Positions 11,997 to 18,843 of a stretch of 54,331 bases of DNA are shown one piece after another; position 1 is the stretch's first letter, and every line of letters starts with the position of its first letter. Source of the stretch: Nitrosomonadales bacterium (GTDB taxonomy: Bacteria; Pseudomonadota; Gammaproteobacteria; Burkholderiales; Gallionellaceae); the NCBI GenBank assembly GCA_025350915.1, contig JANXWX010000117.1, forward strand, positions 1 through 54,331, written 5' to 3'. Position numbers and translations under genes: made by a program. Below the pieces are notes generated by a model. It was not told the origin of the DNA. It worked only from the letters and a program-made list of their open reading frames with translations, and made no database searches.

Positions 11997-13094
11997 TTAT
12001 CCTTCGTTATGTACGTAGCCAACTACTTCCAGACCAAAACCCGCCATGCTGGGTAATTTTCTGGGCGTTGCAATAAGCCGCATTTTACCGACATTCAGGT
12101 CACGCAGTATTTGCGCGCCGATGCCATAACTGCGCGGGTCCCAACGTGCCGCATGATGTGTTTCCGGCTTGGCGGCGGCACGTGCCAGCAGGTCTTCGGA
12201 TGTTTCTGTGTGATGCAGCATTACCATCACGCCGGCTGTTGCCTGTTTAATTTTAAGCAGGGCGTCATGCACGCTGGTGGAATTCGGATAGCTGGTCTGC
12301 TCCAGAAAATCCAGTACCGAAAGCGGCTCATGCACCCGCACCAGTGTTTCAACTTGCGGCTGAATTTTTCCTTTAACCAGCGCCAGATGTGTGCGCTGCG
12401 TAGTCTTGTCGAGATAGGTGCGCAGTTCCAGCTCGCCGTAGGCGGTCTGCACATTGCGGGTGGCGACACACTCCACCAGTTTTTCGGTATGGCTGCGGTG
12501 CTCGATCAGATCGGCGATGGTGCCGATCTTGAGATTGTGTGTTTTCGCATACACAATCAGGTCGGGCAGGCGCGCCATTTCGCCGTCTTCCTTCAGTATC
12601 TCGCAGATCACCGAGGCAGGTGTCAGCCCGGCAAGCTGCGCCAGGTCACAGCCCGCTTCGGTGTGCCCGGCGCGCACCAGTACGCCGCCGTTTTTGGCCA
12701 TCAACGGGAAGATATGGCCGGGCTGCACAATGTCGGAGGGCTTGGCATTTTTATCCGCAGCCATCAACACCGTGCGCGCGCGGTCGGCGGCTGAAATGCC
12801 GGTGGTCACTCCCGTCGCCGCTTCAATCGACAGCGTAAAATTGGTCGCCAGCGGCAGGCCGTTTTCGCGCACCATCAAAGGCAGATCAATCTGCTTGCAG
12901 TGCGCCTCGGTCAGCGTGAGGCAGATCAGGCCGCGGCCATGCTTGGCCATGAAGTTGATTTTTTCTGCGGTGGCAAATTCCGCCGCAAACACCAGATCGC
13001 CCTCGTTCTCGCGATCCTCTTCGTCGATCAGCACCACCATGCGCCCCTGGCGCATTTCTTCAATAATTTCCTGTACCGGTGCTATGTCTGTCAT
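11997..13094 (-). CDS. ribBA: 3,4-dihydroxy-2-butanone-4-phosphate synthase with degenerate GCHII domain
   Basis: A 365-aa two-domain protein. Residues 1 to about 200 are a complete RibB domain, with IDEEDRENEGDLV, GRGLICLTL, and AGHTEAGCDLAQLAG; this domain makes the four-carbon precursor from ribulose 5-phosphate. Residues about 210-365 align with RibA (GTP cyclohydrolase II), ending YGIGAQILRDLNVGKMRL. The three zinc cysteines of active RibA are absent, so the second domain is very probably not a GTP cyclohydrolase, as in many betaproteobacteria. An independent ribA must then be elsewhere. Its promoter region was changed by the island at 13095-18249. Confidence 0.93.
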   Translation of the reverse strand: MTDIAPVQEIIEEMRQGRMVVLIDEEDRENEGDLVFAAEFATAEKINFMAKHGRGLICLTLTEAHCKQIDLPLMVRENGLPLATNFTLSIEAATGVTTGISAADRARTVLMAADKNAKPSDIVQPGHIFPLMAKNGGVLVRAGHTEAGCDLAQLAGLTPASVICEILKEDGEMARLPDLIVYAKTHNLKIGTIADLIEHRSHTEKLVECVATRNVQTAYGELELRTYLDKTTQRTHLALVKGKIQPQVETLVRVHEPLSVLDFLEQTSYPNSTSVHDALLKIKQATAGVMVMLHHTETSEDLLARAAAKPETHHAARWDPRSYGIGAQILRDLNVGKMRLIATPRKLPSMAGFGLEVVGYVHNEG

Positions 13095-13254
13095 TTCCTG
13101 CTTACCTTTGATTTTTCAACGCAACCTCGCAGTCGCATGGTTGCATACTCGTTAATATTGTTTTTTGCGGAGTATAGCTCTGCCCAAGTCCGCGATTTTA
13201 CCACTATGGCATCGATACTTCAGCTCAAGATGACATGCTGTGATTCATCTTCAA

Positions 13255-16200
13255 TCAATGGTATTTGCTACGTCGGTTATTGAATGCTGGTTTCGTACCT
13301 TCAAGTACATTGACAACGTGCGCATTGATAATGGGATTTTCGATTGATCCCGACACGTACTCTATCTTCGATGCACCCTTACGATTAAATGTCGAGTAAA
13401 TAACCTGCTCGGCATCACATACCACTGCGAGATTCGGGTTATGAGTGACCATTATGATTTGCCGCTTCTTCTTCGCTTCACTCAATACAGGCACAAGCAG
13501 GCTTACAACAGTCTCATTATCGAGGTTCTCCTCCGGCTGATCTAAGATAATTGGGTTACGACCCTTGTCTACCAATAAGTAAAAGATAAGAAGGAGTGCG
13601 CCGCGTTGACCGGGAGATAGCTGCTCAATTTGGGTATCTTGAAATAGTAGTGAGTAACGCGGCTCCAAATACGACAAACCATAGAGCAAGTCATACACAC
13701 TACTTGCCGTCCTATCTTTTTTCAGTATCGAAGTGATTCCGATGTCATCAGCATTGCCTGCCGCCAGATGAATCTTTGTGTCGAGTTCGTCAACAAATAT
13801 CAACACCTCCTCCCTTTGATTGAGATCGAACTGTTCAGATAAACGTTTCACCACGAAATGACCTTCGTCTTCACCCCTGAACTCACCAGATGTCTGCTTG
13901 ATAAGTGCGAATAGTGCGGACGAAAGTGCTCCTAATGACCCGCCTAACGTTGCCTGAAATTGCAACTTATATTCATCTATTATGAGCTTATTGCCTTGTA
14001 TCAATTCCTGGACTGGTTTGAATAAGTCCTCACGCGCTTTTCTCTGTGCATTCAGAATGTCAAAAATATCACCAGTTAAATTTAGGCGTTGGCTCTGCTT
14101 CATTTCTAGCAATTCAGGCAGTTCATCAAGTTGCGCAATTCTGTTCTCTAAACCTTTCAGTGTCTCAGGAGCATCTGGTGCACCAGTCAGGTCACGCAGC
14201 TTTTCTTCCCAAAGCTCTATAGCTTTCAGGCTGTTCTGATATAAAAGTTGTGGCTCGTTGAGCTTGTTCTTCAGTGCTGATTCCTCGTTATTCAAAGCTT
14301 GCTTAGCCTGTTCGTTCTGGCTGGATTTATCCGCTAAGAACTGCTGTTCTTGCGCAACCTTTGCTGCCATTTCATCGAGTATTTGCTTGTTTACGCTTAG
14401 CAAGGCAAGATCGTGTGGCGTCACTCCCAATACAACTAAATCTTTTGCCGTGTCGTCTTGAAATTGTTTGTACTGTTTTTCCAAAGTACGCAAACGTTCG
14501 CGAATGGCTTGGATGGCTTTTGATTTGGCTGCAAGGCTCTCTTGGATACTCGCGTTTGATATTGCTTCTTCTTCGAAACTCTTGAGCTTGAGTGTAATTC
14601 CTTCAAGAGAGCTTGCAGCTTGCTGTTGCTCGCTAGACAACTGTTCTGACGGTTTAGGAATATTCCCTGGCTTGTTGTTGATGCTGCTGTGCTCTTCAAT
14701 CTGCCTTTTCTTGAGTGCCAAAAGCTCTTTCAGTGACAGCTTTACCTGCGGTTGGCGTTGTGCCTCAATGTTTTCAATCTCCAGATTGAGCCTTGCAAGG
14801 TCTTTTCGATATTCCCCTAACTGATCTCTATAGCCCCCCTCTTGCTGCTCAATCAATTGGTCAAAATCAAGCGCGCCCAAACGAAGCGCACCACCTGCGT
14901 AGTCAAAGATAACGGCTCTAAGCTCTTTCTCAAATGCGCCAGTACGGCCTGCGATGTGATCATTGCAGAGGTCTTCAAAATGTCCTTGTGGGATATAGCG
15001 GACAAGCTGAACTTTATCGTCTGGTGGGTCGTCTGAAAGACTGCGTTCCTGCGAACTCTGCGAACTCTTATCCAACCACTGTATCTTGCCAATGAATTGT
15101 TTAGCAGGATCGCCAGAACCTGATTTGCCACGAAATCTGTCTTTTTTGAGAAATGAGAAATGTTCTTTTTGTCGAGAATTTCCCAGAAGAGCGATTACGT
15201 CCGCTAAGGCACTTTTGCCGCTACCTTTGTTACCGATGATCGCCACCAAATCATGGTTTAATAACACTCGACAACCTGCGAGCCACTCTTCTGGTATTGA
15301 GCTACCCGCCGCTTTACTGACTTCGATACTATCAATAAAAAAAGTTTTGTTTTTTTCGACTTGGCGTAATTTTCCTGGTCGTTCGCCAATGTAGGATCGC
15401 TTCGCAGGTTCCTTGATTGCTTGTAGCAACCCTAGAAAAGTTGGGTCAGCTTTTATCCAAGTAGCCTTGCCTGAAGGATAATCACCATACCCCCGTTTAT
15501 CGTTATCACCTGGAACGCCAGTAAAAACATGAGCATCACTTCCTGATACCGCTAATCTCGGAATTCTGCCAAGTGCGTTTTGGAAGTTATCAATCCATTT
15601 TTCATTTCCAGGGGTTCGCTCACCTACAAAGGCATCTCTCGTATCTAGGTTGCGCGTTTCAAAAATGGGTGAAGACTTAAAAAGCCCCAAGCAATAAGCG
15701 TAGTGCTCCTGCCACTTAACATCAACCAGCCCATCGCTTGTATCAAAGGGCATGAACCCTACAGCATAGCCATTGGGAACCCTTTCAATTGCACTCTTGT
15801 AGCTGTCACAATTGATTTCAGCAATAACTGAACCAGCTCGTAAAGCCTCATTAATGTTTGCATCAACTACCGCTTTCTTGAAACTATGAAGCTTTAGCTT
15901 GTCCTCACCCACCATCCGGGCAAGGGCAACCAAAGAGTCGTCTGATAACGGTCGATTGACTAGCTCAACATTTAAAGCTGCCTTAAAGTCGCGAAGCATT
16001 TGATCCGTAATCTCGTCGGAAAAGAGTACATGAGCATTTAAACGCCCTGTCATCGGAGCCATCAAGCGGAGTTCTATTCCTGGAAACACACGTTTCAATA
16101 ATTTTGGCGCTCCCTCTTGTGCCAGTCGCCGCTTTAAAGCAAACCAGCCGTCAAAAGTCCAATAATCCATCAATGCAAACACTGCCGGCTCTGCTGCGTT

Positions 16201-16359
16201 TAGCGCGGCAATCATTTCATCAACTAAAGCAGTATTCTCGACCGAGTTTGGGTCAGAATCAAAACACTTTCCAAGCCAATGAAATGACGCAGGCGTGTGA
16301 ATATGCAAGTCCCATTGACACCACTCTGCTCCGCGTTCAAATTCGCTACTGGTTGTCAT
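13255..16359 (-). CDS. TrlF-like protein: PHP-type N-terminus with SMC/ABC-like ATPase
   Basis: A 1034-aa protein. The N-terminus resembles a PHP metallo-phosphoesterase: WDLHIHTPAS (LHIHT at 18-22) and VSGSDAHV (271-278). An ABC/SMC-type ATPase follows, with Walker A GNKGSGKS (376-383), a long charged coiled-coil middle (about 480-760), the signature LSPGQRG (914-920), Walker B IILDQPEEN (about 937-945), and an H-loop VTHNP (about 971-975). This architecture matches proteins that databases call TrlF-family AAA-like ATPases (name from memory). A nucleic-acid sensing or cleaving role in defence is inferred from architecture and neighbours. The ATG at 16359 was used. All motifs are intact, so the gene appears functional. 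Confidence 0.8.
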   Translation of the reverse strand: MTTSSEFERGAEWCQWDLHIHTPASFHWLGKCFDSDPNSVENTALVDEMIAALNAAEPAVFALMDYWTFDGWFALKRRLAQEGAPKLLKRVFPGIELRLMAPMTGRLNAHVLFSDEITDQMLRDFKAALNVELVNRPLSDDSLVALARMVGEDKLKLHSFKKAVVDANINEALRAGSVIAEINCDSYKSAIERVPNGYAVGFMPFDTSDGLVDVKWQEHYAYCLGLFKSSPIFETRNLDTRDAFVGERTPGNEKWIDNFQNALGRIPRLAVSGSDAHVFTGVPGDNDKRGYGDYPSGKATWIKADPTFLGLLQAIKEPAKRSYIGERPGKLRQVEKNKTFFIDSIEVSKAAGSSIPEEWLAGCRVLLNHDLVAIIGNKGSGKSALADVIALLGNSRQKEHFSFLKKDRFRGKSGSGDPAKQFIGKIQWLDKSSQSSQERSLSDDPPDDKVQLVRYIPQGHFEDLCNDHIAGRTGAFEKELRAVIFDYAGGALRLGALDFDQLIEQQEGGYRDQLGEYRKDLARLNLEIENIEAQRQPQVKLSLKELLALKKRQIEEHSSINNKPGNIPKPSEQLSSEQQQAASSLEGITLKLKSFEEEAISNASIQESLAAKSKAIQAIRERLRTLEKQYKQFQDDTAKDLVVLGVTPHDLALLSVNKQILDEMAAKVAQEQQFLADKSSQNEQAKQALNNEESALKNKLNEPQLLYQNSLKAIELWEEKLRDLTGAPDAPETLKGLENRIAQLDELPELLEMKQSQRLNLTGDIFDILNAQRKAREDLFKPVQELIQGNKLIIDEYKLQFQATLGGSLGALSSALFALIKQTSGEFRGEDEGHFVVKRLSEQFDLNQREEVLIFVDELDTKIHLAAGNADDIGITSILKKDRTASSVYDLLYGLSYLEPRYSLLFQDTQIEQLSPGQRGALLLIFYLLVDKGRNPIILDQPEENLDNETVVSLLVPVLSEAKKKRQIIMVTHNPNLAVVCDAEQVIYSTFNRKGASKIEYVSGSIENPIINAHVVNVLEGTKPAFNNRRSKYH

Positions 16360-16424
16360 TTGTCAGTCCCTAATCTGAGGTTAATAACTGTAGAGGCAGA
16401 ACCGGTTTCTGAAAGCGCTGGAAA

Positions 16425-16521
16425 CTACAGCCCCGCAATCCCCTGCAAGTCCCCATACATCCCCGCCGTTGCCCCCCATCACACGCTCAATCTGCTCTTC
16501 GCGCTTGGCCCATTACTTCAT
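16425..16521 (-). pseudogene. relic of a DUF2130-type gene (3' end)
   Basis: On the minus strand the sequence reads WAKREEQIERVMGGNGG in one frame and GMYGDLQGIAGL plus stop in another, with a stop just before the first piece. Together these match the C-terminal KREKQIERV...GMYGDLQGI signature that I associate with DUF2130 proteins. The frameshift and stop show it is dead. The rest of 16360-16646 shows nothing else I can name. Confidence 0.5.
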
Positions 16522-16646
16522 AATCGCCTTTGGTTTTACGATCCAGTTAATTTCGAGTTTTTTGATCACGATGTGACAATAACCACCTAATTTTTAACTA
16601 TATTTTAGATAAGTCCATTTTTGGATGTGATAAGAATTTGGCCTGT

Positions 16647-16853
16647 TTATGCCCAATACGGCAGGTATTCGACAAACTTGTTACCGCTATTCTCATCTTT
16701 GCGTTTGATCCTCCCTGCGCGCAAGGTATCAGCAATTAAGTTGGTAATTGAATTTCGTTGTTTATCGGTTAGTTTAAAACGTTTGCGCAATGTGGTGTTG
16801 GTTAACATTTGGCTGGATAAAAATTGCAAAACCCTCGTACTTATGATTTTCGC
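16647..16853 (-). pseudogene. 3' relic of an AlbA_2-type ATP-binding protein gene
   Basis: An open frame without a good start (TTG at 16829 at best, no ribosome-binding site) encodes about 60 residues: QMLTNTTLRKRFKLTDKQR, then NSITNLIADTLRAG, then FVEYLPYWA. This is the kind of winged-helix C-terminus, ending YxPYWA, seen in AlbA_2/Schlafen-like putative transcriptional regulators (from memory). The N-terminal parts are missing. It lies directly after the antitoxin gene. Confidence 0.5.
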
Positions 16854-16858
16854 TCATT

Positions 16859-17182
16859 CTAAAGAACCGCTTCCAGCCCTTTTCGCTCCAGGAGATTGAG
16901 CAACTTTAGTGACGGCCCGCTCGGATGCTTCTCACCGATTTCCCATTTACGCACTGTCGATAGGCTGGTGTTCAACACTGCGGCAAGCACTGATTGACTT
17001 AACTGTAGATGTTTACGCAGCGCGCGGATTTTCTCACTGTCGTAAGCTGGTACCGGGTCGAGACACAGCGCGTCGAACTTGCGCATTTTACGTTTATCGA
17101 TAAAACCCAGACGGTGCAAATCACTGGCCGTCTCATGTACGGCTTCTAAAATTTGGCTTTTAGTTTTGGTTTTTTTGGTCAT
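16859..17182 (-). CDS. antitoxin, HigA-like helix-turn-helix protein
   Basis: A 107-aa protein with a C-terminal Cro/C1-type helix-turn-helix: IRALRKHLQLSQSVLAAVLN, STVRKWEIGEKHPSGPSLKLL. The N-terminal half (Lys-rich, KSQILEAVHETASDLHRLG) should bind the toxin. It overlaps the toxin gene by 23 nt, with the toxin first, as in higBA-type modules. I used the ATG at 17182; longer open frames upstream are in the toxin's shadow. It probably represses its own operon. Confidence 0.85.
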   Translation of the reverse strand: MTKKTKTKSQILEAVHETASDLHRLGFIDKRKMRKFDALCLDPVPAYDSEKIRALRKHLQLSQSVLAAVLNTSLSTVRKWEIGEKHPSGPSLKLLNLLERKGLEAVL

Positions 17183-17549
17183 GGCAAATCTCCTGTAACG
17201 CACCTTCTTCAACTGCCTCATCAAGCTGCTGGGCTGTTCTGACCAGCAACTGTTCAGCGATGTCCCGCAATGCCTCCAGCTCATCATCCGCGATGTTGGC
17301 GCGTTCATTTTTCTCGAAGCCGAAGACGAAAAACCACCTGTTTCCCTTGTTGGTCGCAACCAGTGTTCTGGCGCCGCCACGTTTACCTCGGCCTGCAAGC
17401 CCGATGCGTTTCTTTACAACGCCACCGCCGAGGTCGGCATCGATCAATCCCTGAACCATTTCTTCCACCGCATTTAATAATGCGCTGTCCGTTAACTCTG
17501 TTTTCCGCATCCAGCGACTGAAGTGGCGGGTTTTGAAAATTCGCTTCAT
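17160..17549 (-). CDS. RelE/HigB-type toxin
   Basis: A 129-aa protein of the RelE/ParE/HigB superfamily, in the subgroup beginning MKRIFKTRHFSRWMRK. The core contains KRIGLAGRGKRGGARTLVAT and a hydrophobic strand RWFFVFGFEKNERANI, followed by a helical C-terminus. Members of this fold usually cut mRNA on the ribosome. It is paired with the overlapping antitoxin gene and starts 16 nt after the KilA-N remnant. Both partners look intact, so the module could be active. Confidence 0.83.
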   Translation of the reverse strand: MKRIFKTRHFSRWMRKTELTDSALLNAVEEMVQGLIDADLGGGVVKKRIGLAGRGKRGGARTLVATNKGNRWFFVFGFEKNERANIADDELEALRDIAEQLLVRTAQQLDEAVEEGALQEICHDQKNQN

Positions 17550-17565
17550 TTACTTATTGTGACAC

Positions 17566-18051
17566 CTAGTGGCATAGTTGTCCATCAATTCCTGTGGGCG
17601 CGAACCTTAAGCAAAACATTGGTGCTGATTTACGCGGGTCGCCATTCAAAACGACGGTCTTAATGAGATAGGGCTTGAATTCCGGGCTGAGCCATGATCC
17701 AAACTCAAAAGCGATGTCTTTGTGTGCGAAGGTACCGCCGTATCGACCTGCTTTGGCGTGCAAGCCGACAGCATTGGTGGCATCAACCCATTTCTCGGCG
17801 GGCAGAAAAAAACTGTTTCGACCCGCCTCGTTTTTAATTCCCTCGAATTCGAGGGAATTAAAACTCGGGTTGTTGAGCTGCTCCCACACGCCCAGGAACA
17901 GCACCGTATCCTTGTTCTTAAGCCACTGCTCGATCAAAGCGCTACCACCGTCGAAGTGCTTCACCATGTCGGTCAACAATATGTAGTCCTGCTCGTGTCG
18001 AGTGGAAATGGTGACTGCTACACCTTTGACATTTATGATACGGTTCTTCAT
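17566..18051 (-). pseudogene. KilA-N domain protein, C-terminally truncated
   Basis: From ATG 18051 (AGGAG 8 nt upstream) the frame encodes a typical KilA-N domain: DYILLTDMVKHFDGGSALIE, LGVWEQLNNPSFNSLEFEGI, GRYGGTFAHKDIAFEFGSWL, SPEFKPYLIK. In relatives this is followed by further domains, but here the homology stops at YLIK and an unrelated tail of about 26 residues leads to the stop at 17566. KilA-N proteins bind DNA and come from phages and islands. A 32-bp perfect palindrome lies inside the frame. Whether the shortened protein is still made is unknown. Confidence 0.7.
17832..17863. repeat. 32-bp perfect palindrome within the KilA-N gene
   Basis: The arm TTTTAATTCCCTCGAA is followed directly by its exact reverse complement TTCGAGGGAATTAAAA, with no spacer, centred on GAATTC. 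It encodes the FNSLEFEGIK stretch, a conserved part of the family, so protein constraint and DNA symmetry coincide. It may be chance, an operator or a cruciform. Confidence 0.8.
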
Positions 18052-18249
18052 GCGAAACGCTCCTAAAATTGCCGATACATACAACGGGTTCAGTCGAGCA
18101 ATATACCGTTTTCTTTCACTCTACTACGCGATGAGCCGATTATGATGCAGCGCTTCAAGTAGCACCAGTCCACGATAAATAGTTGTGTTGCAGATAGTCT
18201 ACGACTTCTGGCTCACTCTAATCAACTTGCCTCACATTCCACAGTGAAG
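18052..18249. other. island edge beside ribE, no recognised gene
   Basis: The 198 bp between the KilA-N start and the ribE stop contain the AGGAG for the KilA-N gene and otherwise AT-rich sequence. A 24-codon open stretch on the minus strand (stop at 18124-18126) ends GLVLLEALHHNRLIA and might be a gene fragment, but I cannot name it. No direct repeat matching the other island edge is evident. Confidence 0.4.
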
Positions 18250-18843
18250 CTATTTGTCAGCATTCAGCATCCGCTCCACATAGCGCGCGATCAGGTCAAT
18301 TTCAAGATTCACTCTGGAATCAACATGCAGTTCTTTCAGTGTTGTTTGCTGCAGGGTATGCGGGATCAGGTTCACTTCAAACGCAGTGCCTTCGATCTTG
18401 TTTACCGTCAGGCTCACACCATTGATGGTGACGGATCCCTTTGCGGCAATATATTTGCTCAGATCATGCGGTGTATGCACGACTAGCTTCCAGCTCTCCC
18501 CCAGATTGACGAAATCCATTACTTCGCCCACGCCATCCACATGCCCGCTCACCAGATGGCCGCCCAGCCTGTCGGCCAGCCGCAAGGCTTTTTCCAGATT
18601 CACCTGCGCGCCTTGTTGCTCTAACCCTACCGTGCAATTCAATGTCTCGCGTGATACATCCACGGTAAAACACTTACCTTCAATCTGGACAGCGGTTAGA
18701 CATACACCATTTACCGCGATGCTGTCACCCAACTGCACATCCTCCATTCCCAGCCGGTTGGTCTCTATGCGCAAACGCAAGCCGCCGTCGCGTTCCTGTT
18801 TGTCCGCTATGGTGCCTACGTCGGCAATTATTCCGGTAAACAT
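18250..18843 (-). CDS. ribE: riboflavin synthase alpha chain
   Basis: A 197-aa protein made of two homologous lumazine-binding halves that converts two molecules of 6,7-dimethyl-8-ribityllumazine to riboflavin. The start MFTGIIADVG (ATG 18843, AGGAG 7 nt upstream) and the repeated motifs AVNGVCLTA and TINGVSLTV are diagnostic, as is GGHLVSGHVDG. The longer open frame from 18909 only overlaps ribD and was not used. It starts 2 nt after the ribD stop. The downstream partner ribBA is displaced by the island. Confidence 0.95.
   Translation of the reverse strand: MFTGIIADVGTIADKQERDGGLRLRIETNRLGMEDVQLGDSIAVNGVCLTAVQIEGKCFTVDVSRETLNCTVGLEQQGAQVNLEKALRLADRLGGHLVSGHVDGVGEVMDFVNLGESWKLVVHTPHDLSKYIAAKGSVTINGVSLTVNKIEGTAFEVNLIPHTLQQTTLKELHVDSRVNLEIDLIARYVERMLNADK

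Follow-up and report, generated by a model that had tools for sequence, protein, structure and literature searches.

A solitary long-branch TrlF gene in the rib operon of a Gallionellaceae bacterium: a horizontally acquired candidate for anti-phage defence

The accessible part of the paper on the Photorhabdus TRL operon names its genes as trlR, trlF and trlG and reports no defence role for trlF (PMC7554251). The protein family TrlF (NCBIfam NF045780, TrlF family AAA-like ATPase) is presumably named after this operon, while two papers on tropolone biosynthesis (PMC11110157, PMC7497051) use the same name for what, to judge from their titles, is a different gene. Here we analyse a trlF gene in a 54,331-nucleotide stretch of DNA from a Nitrosomonadales bacterium of the Gallionellaceae (contig JANXWX010000117.1 of assembly GCA_025350915.1), the whole of which we call the window. 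With a probability of roughly 0.55, we propose that this gene was acquired horizontally, acts against phages or mobile elements, and encodes a one-protein analogue of machines that combine a nuclease with an SMC ATPase. Neither a function for this TrlF, nor the cluster of DrmD, TrlF, Mod and Res in which relatives occur, nor the lone form was found described in the literature searched, with subscription literature outside its scope.

The reading frame is uninterrupted over 1034 codons from ATG to TGA, and its product is a full-length member of the already named TrlF family, matching NF045780 with 659.8 bits over profile positions 1-944 of 944 (cut-off 350). This confirms the TrlF-like identity proposed in an original prediction made from the DNA letters alone, all the motifs listed there were found as well, and the long coiled coil is predicted by the structure model:

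13255-16359, minus strand: trlF, encoding a 1034-residue protein with PHP and SMC/Rad50-like ATPase parts (open reading frame listing, NF045780, AlphaFold2 model)
16294-16308, minus strand: LHIHT metal motif, residues 18-22; H19 in 61/62 and H21 in 62/62 aligned sequences
15379-16326, minus strand: predicted PHP phosphoesterase domain, residues 12-327 (VIA-align, Endonuclease Q 5zb8)
15529-15546, minus strand: SGSDAH metal motif, residues 272-277; D275 and H277 in 62/62
15211-15234, minus strand: Walker A GNKGSGKS, residues 376-383; K382 in 62/62
13993-14865, minus strand: predicted coiled-coil arm, about residues 499-789 (DSSP of the AlphaFold2 model)
13600-13617, minus strand: ABC signature SPGQRG, residues 915-920; S915 and G917 in 62/62
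13531-13548, minus strand: Walker B ILDQPE, residues 938-943; E943 in 61/62
13441-13443, minus strand: H-loop H973, in 62/62

Conservation was counted over 62 aligned sequences (alignment A2), which include 61 of the 79 loci from a genome-contig scan, 18 fragments, near copies and distant rows having been removed by hand. The motif residues are kept in 61 or 62 of them. Besides the histidines and aspartate listed above, the candidate PHP ligands D65 and E96 are kept in all 62 and H110 in 61, and in the ATPase part D940 and D947 are also invariant. Of 97 alignment columns conserved to 95% or more, the window protein deviates at one, which is also the median of the 62 rows. Relative to five near relatives, the private codon changes of the window gene comprise 0 at first, 1 at second and 15 at third codon positions. 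This shows constraint on the coding sequence along the window branch without dating it specifically to the period after insertion; the suggestion that selection has kept the gene thus stands for the branch and not for its time at the present site.

The AlphaFold2 model, built from the 62 aligned sequences, has a mean predicted local distance difference test score (pLDDT) of 87.0 and a predicted TM-score of 0.72. Within it the N-terminal part resembles Endonuclease Q (5zb8) with Z 16.0 and a root-mean-square deviation of 3.1 over 211 residues (VIA-align). Modelled alone, the domain reaches pLDDT 94.0 and scores Z 15.5 with Endonuclease Q, 13.9 with RNase AM (7ug9), about 12 with Pol III alpha and about 6 with YwqE, YcdX and HisK, while Foldseek places RNase AM first. 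Since the Pfam PHP family gave no match at E<=0.1, the PHP assignment rests on this fold, which spans the N-terminal domain. Endonuclease Q and RNase AM are thus among the nearest solved PHP folds, but their matched chains are 206-398 residues long, have no SMC-type ATPase and share 14-16% sequence identity with the window protein. A nucleic-acid phosphoesterase is the activity that the model favours, with a small-molecule phosphatase also possible.

Residues 340-1030 are predicted to form an SMC/Rad50-type head (5h68, Z 15.8, deviation 4.0 over 265 residues; VIA-align), which a helical arm of about 290 residues divides into two halves. In Pfam, SMC_N lies slightly below its cut-off (37.3 of 40 bits) and AAA_21 is above cut-off in the C-terminal lobe. 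A phmmer search of the PDB found no close sequence relative, the best matches being to the ATPase lobe alone. Foldseek matches in the PDB at E<=0.001 include MukB, Rad50, JetABC (Wadjet), Lamassu LmuACB and AriA, with TM-scores over the whole chain (0.13-0.22 by query) that are low because the arm is flexible. An SMC/Rad50-type ATPase coupled to a nuclease, presumed in TrlF, is shared with Mre11-Rad50/SbcCD, Lamassu, Wadjet and PARIS AriA, which are among the leading fold matches. In those systems the nuclease is a separate subunit, whereas the presumed nuclease of the window TrlF is its fused PHP domain. The best of 18 PADLOC family matches, all of them within the ATPase part, is Ppl (66 bits, residues 909-1030), followed by mad3 (44 bits, residues 367-1002). 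Ppl has a related C-terminal ATPase lobe and the same plan of PHP plus ATPase, but membership in it is ruled out by NCBIfam NF042955, where the window protein scores 77.9 bits while the cut-off is 1000 and aligns best over residues 909-1030.

The distribution of the gene is that of a mobile accessory gene. A search of 60 relatives (E<=1e-30) matched only the bacterium's own genome, so trlF is not a housekeeping gene, and 17 of 274 genomes in a survey of the class, own genome included, exceeded the family cut-off. The original prediction had named a housekeeping ortholog distribution as evidence against an anti-phage role, and what we found is the opposite pattern. The nearest relative among the loci listed is from Thiobacillus (70% identity, full length), with further relatives at 50-66% in alpha-, beta- and gammaproteobacteria and one at 49% in an Acidobacteriaceae bacterium. 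The scan of genome contigs recovered at least 79 TrlF loci from many phyla, out of at least 533 confirmed stretches (tblastn E<=1e-3) that are not necessarily all TrlF. Fifteen plasmid records hold a match covering 80% or more of the TrlF length, and ten plasmid loci inspected showed no fixed partner gene. Seven phage records match, none covering 80% in one place; in a Microcystis phage a distant relative is split into two pieces between residues 9 and 1033, with 49% coverage and 29.5% identity. Four loci (L049, L054, L060 and L104; L-numbers are locus labels of this analysis) have shortened or split copies, for which assembly error, or a contig end in L054, is possible.

The window trlF lies in an insertion between two riboflavin genes, the left one of which we take, from its sequence, to be ribE:

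11997-13094, minus strand: ribBA, right flank of the island (open reading frame listing; matched in 34/36 genomes)
13095-18249, no strand: island, 5155 nt from the ribBA start to the ribE stop
18250-18843, minus strand: presumably ribE (riboflavin synthase), left flank of the island (open reading frame listing)

The island is missing from all four genomes of the same genus, in which the gap between ribE and ribBA is 147, 76, 74 and 99 nt (L115-L118). Among 29 loci of relatives examined, ribE lies near ribBA in 15, at 5-162 nt in 14 of them and at 1350 nt in L125. It was not found within the 1.5-kb flank of ribBA in the other 14 (L119-L123, L128, L131-L134, L136, L137, L141 and L142), and this junction may therefore be variable elsewhere in the order and perhaps a site of insertion. 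G+C content is 45% in 2-kb windows across trlF and 55-57% immediately outside, although other parts of the window are low too. No tRNA or Rfam match marks an integration site in the window, no convincing direct repeats were seen at the island borders, Pfam found no integrase among the island proteins scanned, and scans for promoters and terminators gave signals no higher than shuffles. We regard trlF in this rib operon as horizontally acquired.

Comparison of gene neighbourhoods, in which all figures depend on simple open reading frame calling and on the length of flank available, yields three contexts. In the first, seen in the class survey, TrlF has a TrlG-type gene next to it in 10 of 16 genomes (flanks of about 1.5 kb), an arrangement that agrees with the Photorhabdus TRL operon (PMC7554251); the TrlG-type genes bear SLFN_AlbA_2 and HATPase_c_4 domains in all three tested. 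The TrlFs linked to TrlG are mostly about 880-930 residues long, and those of a second branch mostly about 1000-1040. The window TrlF belongs to this long branch, in which the trlG neighbour of the canonical kind is missing. Of the 89 loci taken from the long branch and from plasmids, 88 show no TrlG in the available flank; the sole exception, L064, has a TrlG-like gene 2.7 kb off, on the other strand. Directly beside the window trlF no TrlG is present, and what lies upstream is a 68-codon C-terminal remnant of another AlbA_2 type. The window protein thus shares with the Photorhabdus system the full-length family match and the combination of PHP and ATPase, and differs from it in its longer branch, in the missing TrlG and in standing alone in a rib operon.

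The second context is a cluster of restriction-like genes. In 11 of the 89 loci long TrlF has near it, in the same direction, genes for a DrmD-like helicase and for a type III-like Mod. Ten of these 11 loci have Res as well, and in 7 of them the end of the helicase gene and the beginning of trlF share 16 nt. PADLOC identifies the neighbours in L036 as DrmD (676 bits), MTase_III (741) and REase_III (695). Genes for DUF2130, AIPR/AbiU-like and DUF1016 proteins differ among cluster members. Three further loci of the 89 have Mod and Res without the helicase, and L073, L080 and L091 have a Mod-like gene by itself. L099, with its DrmD-like gene 7.5 kb and its Mod-like gene 3.4 kb off, was excluded by hand from the 11 but is labelled cluster-linked in the tree, and the 297-nt gap in L021 is an unsafe figure because TrlF is split there. 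In the third context TrlF is solitary: among the 65 loci whose flanks reach at least 3.5 kb each way, 49 have neither DrmD, Mod, Res nor TrlG, and the solitary TrlFs of L033, L048 and L056 are full-length. The window gene is of this kind, since DrmD, Mod and Res, which adjoin several of the nearest TrlFs, are absent beside it within the window. Among the neighbours of 69 solitary loci, PADLOC matched 246 families in 110 near proteins (of 267) and 76 in 110 far proteins (of 196), a weak comparison because it counts families and not proteins.

We placed the window TrlF with a 98-row FastTree (rows below 850 residues and near copies dropped) and a quick 33-row IQ-TREE, both of which carry long-branch warnings. 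It falls in a clade of 15 rows, 10 of them cluster-linked, with support of 98 (FastTree) and 87 (IQ-TREE), and is sister to cluster-linked L057 with 92 and 93, neither value starred; by path length it is nearest to L032, also cluster-linked. A smaller, starred clade of 8 holds 3 cluster-linked and 5 solitary rows, the window among the latter. On the 33-row tree the cluster label needs 5 changes, at least 3 of which are forced by starred branches, indicating that solitary and cluster-linked forms have interchanged. In the bacterium's own genome, a draft of 263 contigs, a search without a positive control gave no Mod match at E<=1e-10, and the helicase match was partial (42 bits). A relative of type III Res, 46% identical to the Res of the L057 cluster, is represented by its C-terminal half at the edge of another contig (C157:4-1350, L146), and the gene next to this Res fragment reads like enolase. 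Partners may also lie in unassembled sequence.

Taken together, the patchy horizontal distribution, the plasmid copies and the relatives inside DrmD/Mod/Res clusters lend indirect support to the anti-phage role of the original prediction; trlF is probably anti-phage because its close relatives are built into multi-gene clusters resembling defence systems. In the mechanism we envisage, two SMC/Rad50-type heads would dimerise around ATP and, with the coiled-coil arm, may detect an abnormal state of the invader's DNA. ATP binding or hydrolysis would free or position the N-terminal PHP metal site, which would cut nucleic acid, most likely DNA, with RNA or a nucleotide as possible substrates, and infection would be stopped through degradation of the invader or arrest of the cell. 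The window TrlF would act without partners, and the logic suggested by fold and context would be that of Mre11-Rad50 or Lamassu within a single chain. Several observations weigh against this. None of the 18 matching PADLOC families covers the PHP part. The putative phosphoesterases 3e38 and 2anu (Z 14.1 and 13.8), PsfC (13.7) and nucleotide-bound 2yb1 (11.5) score much like the nucleases against the PHP domain alone, and these folds have other or unknown substrates. Fold and motif conservation speak for the predicted ATP-gated nuclease or phosphoesterase in general, and the activity may be that of a nuclease or of a small-molecule phosphatase. The window branch is not short (0.26-0.30 in both trees), no close orthologue was found for dating selection since insertion, and in the accessible part of PMC7554251 the temperature-tolerant Photorhabdus mutants are in trlG and none in trlF, so that no TrlF phenotype is shown even there. 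Finally, with its nearest relatives partly in clusters, the lone window copy could be a stranded part.

This last idea is the chief rival: the window gene would derive from a DrmD-TrlF-Mod-Res locus and need the helicase or modification partners, being alone either inactive or active in trans with remains of such a system elsewhere in the genome. The pairing with L057, the proximity to L032 and the Res fragment in the own genome speak for it, but that genome yielded no Mod and only the weak helicase match, solitary long TrlFs are frequent and include full-length ones, and the window copy retains the conserved columns, and on balance we consider it doubtful. Rather more readily, yet still tentatively, we entertain a broader proposal. 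An as yet unnamed defence locus would consist of four genes, for the DrmD-like helicase, TrlF, the type III-like Mod and Res, with long TrlF as its ATP-gated nuclease module; TrlF would have left or joined the locus more than once, and it would also be a complete single-gene defence, of which the window copy would be one case. That the window gene serves growth arrest or stress, in the manner of the Photorhabdus TRL operon, and not phage defence is unlikely; the family name and the TrlG-type neighbours of canonical TrlFs point that way, but neither the window gene nor nearly all of the long branch has TrlG beside it, the upstream remnant is of a 485-residue type and itself matches none of seven TrlGs, and the Photorhabdus mutants again hit the other gene. 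Least probable of all is a housekeeping nuclease for chromosomal DNA repair, built like a fused SbcCD, with which the Rad50/SMC fold and the closeness of the PHP domain to nucleic-acid enzymes would agree; it was rejected on distribution, the other 59 relatives being without a match, and the plasmid copies and the shortened or split ones, if not artefacts, also speak against it.

Besides trlF, the island contains four features:

17566-18051, minus strand: KilA-N gene, 3' truncated (PF04383)
17160-17549, minus strand: RelE-family toxin, full length (PF06296, 163 bits, positions 1-120 of 120)
about 16859-17182, minus strand: helix-turn-helix (HTH) protein, probable antitoxin (HTH_3)
16647-16853, minus strand: C-terminal 68 codons of a Schlafen/AlbA_2-HATPase 'ATP-binding protein' (485-residue type), a remnant

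The RelE and HTH genes, upstream of trlF, overlap in reading frame and look intact as a pair. The original prediction had called trlF the only large intact reading frame in an island of otherwise decayed genes, which overstates the matter; decay applies to the KilA-N gene, with 161 residues against 275 in an Aeromonas relative (PDC-S22 profile positions 1-134 of 281), and to the Schlafen/AlbA_2-type gene. The remnant of the latter lies right after the HTH gene stop. Pfam gave no match to the remnant itself; it aligns to residues 424-485 of two proteins of the 485-residue type bearing SLFN_AlbA_2 and HATPase_c_4, and its best match among 24 plasmid records is a Variovorax plasmid protein (70% identity over 57 residues) with no TrlF near. 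It prompted the idea that the locus is a TRL operon with a decayed trlG, which we rejected because the remnant is upstream whereas TrlG is downstream in the class loci, because the Variovorax match has no TrlF nearby, because the remnant fits a C-terminal extension missing from the TrlGs of about 410 residues, and because the long TrlF branch lacks TrlG. Its 75 bits against a TrlG-type hidden Markov model are circular, the model having been built from the remnant's own matches. On a Desulfosarcina plasmid (L112), the gene for an AlbA_2-type ATP-binding protein has an anti-phage-associated DUF1156 gene on one side and a phospholipase D-like anti-phage gene on the other.

Inside the truncated KilA-N gene there is a perfect 32-bp palindrome (17832-17863) centred on GAATTC. 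We compared it with 47 further KilA-N loci (L153-L199; 46 from IMG/VR and one Aeromonas plasmid), 31 of them distinct at this stretch. In the window type these codons read FNxxEFxxIK; across the loci the homologous stretch is for the most part near-palindromic, with half-sites that vary in a compensating manner. When 32 distinct rows are scored, the share of pairing cells is 92.9%, compared with 75.8% in shuffles, and the covariation score is 0.451 against 0.143 (standard deviation 0.014), a level reached by none of 500 shuffles; kinship among the rows inflates both scores. Further pair types show no excess (19 against 18.3). Ten of the 31 distinct rows have a perfect arm of at least 8, which the matched gene parts show at no other place, while the central GAATTC is broken in L162, L173, L181 and L191 and reads GAATTT in five more. 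At the five variable pairs, G-U accounts for no more than 4 of 160 cells, a hint of constraint on the DNA itself. Six other IMG/VR contigs, in which KilA-N has no match, carry the same kind of palindrome, and it may be a dispersed palindromic element:

L147: 13028-13057
L148: 2749
L149: 1671
L150: 34
L151: 3993
L152: 5585

In L147 it is in frame (FNSLEFEGIK) within an unrelated reading frame, and four of the six contigs have no open frame of 60 codons across the palindrome.

TrlF is a widespread family, with at least 79 loci across many phyla and no function shown in the literature found. If long TrlF is indeed a module of the four-gene locus, it would be an exchangeable cassette comparable to the accessory effectors of other restriction loci. 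The solitary window copy offers a simple one-gene test case, and its intact catalytic residues, its PHP domain resembling Endonuclease Q and RNase AM, and the split of the family into forms linked to TrlG, linked to restriction-modification genes, or solitary turn a vague annotation into predictions that can be tested.

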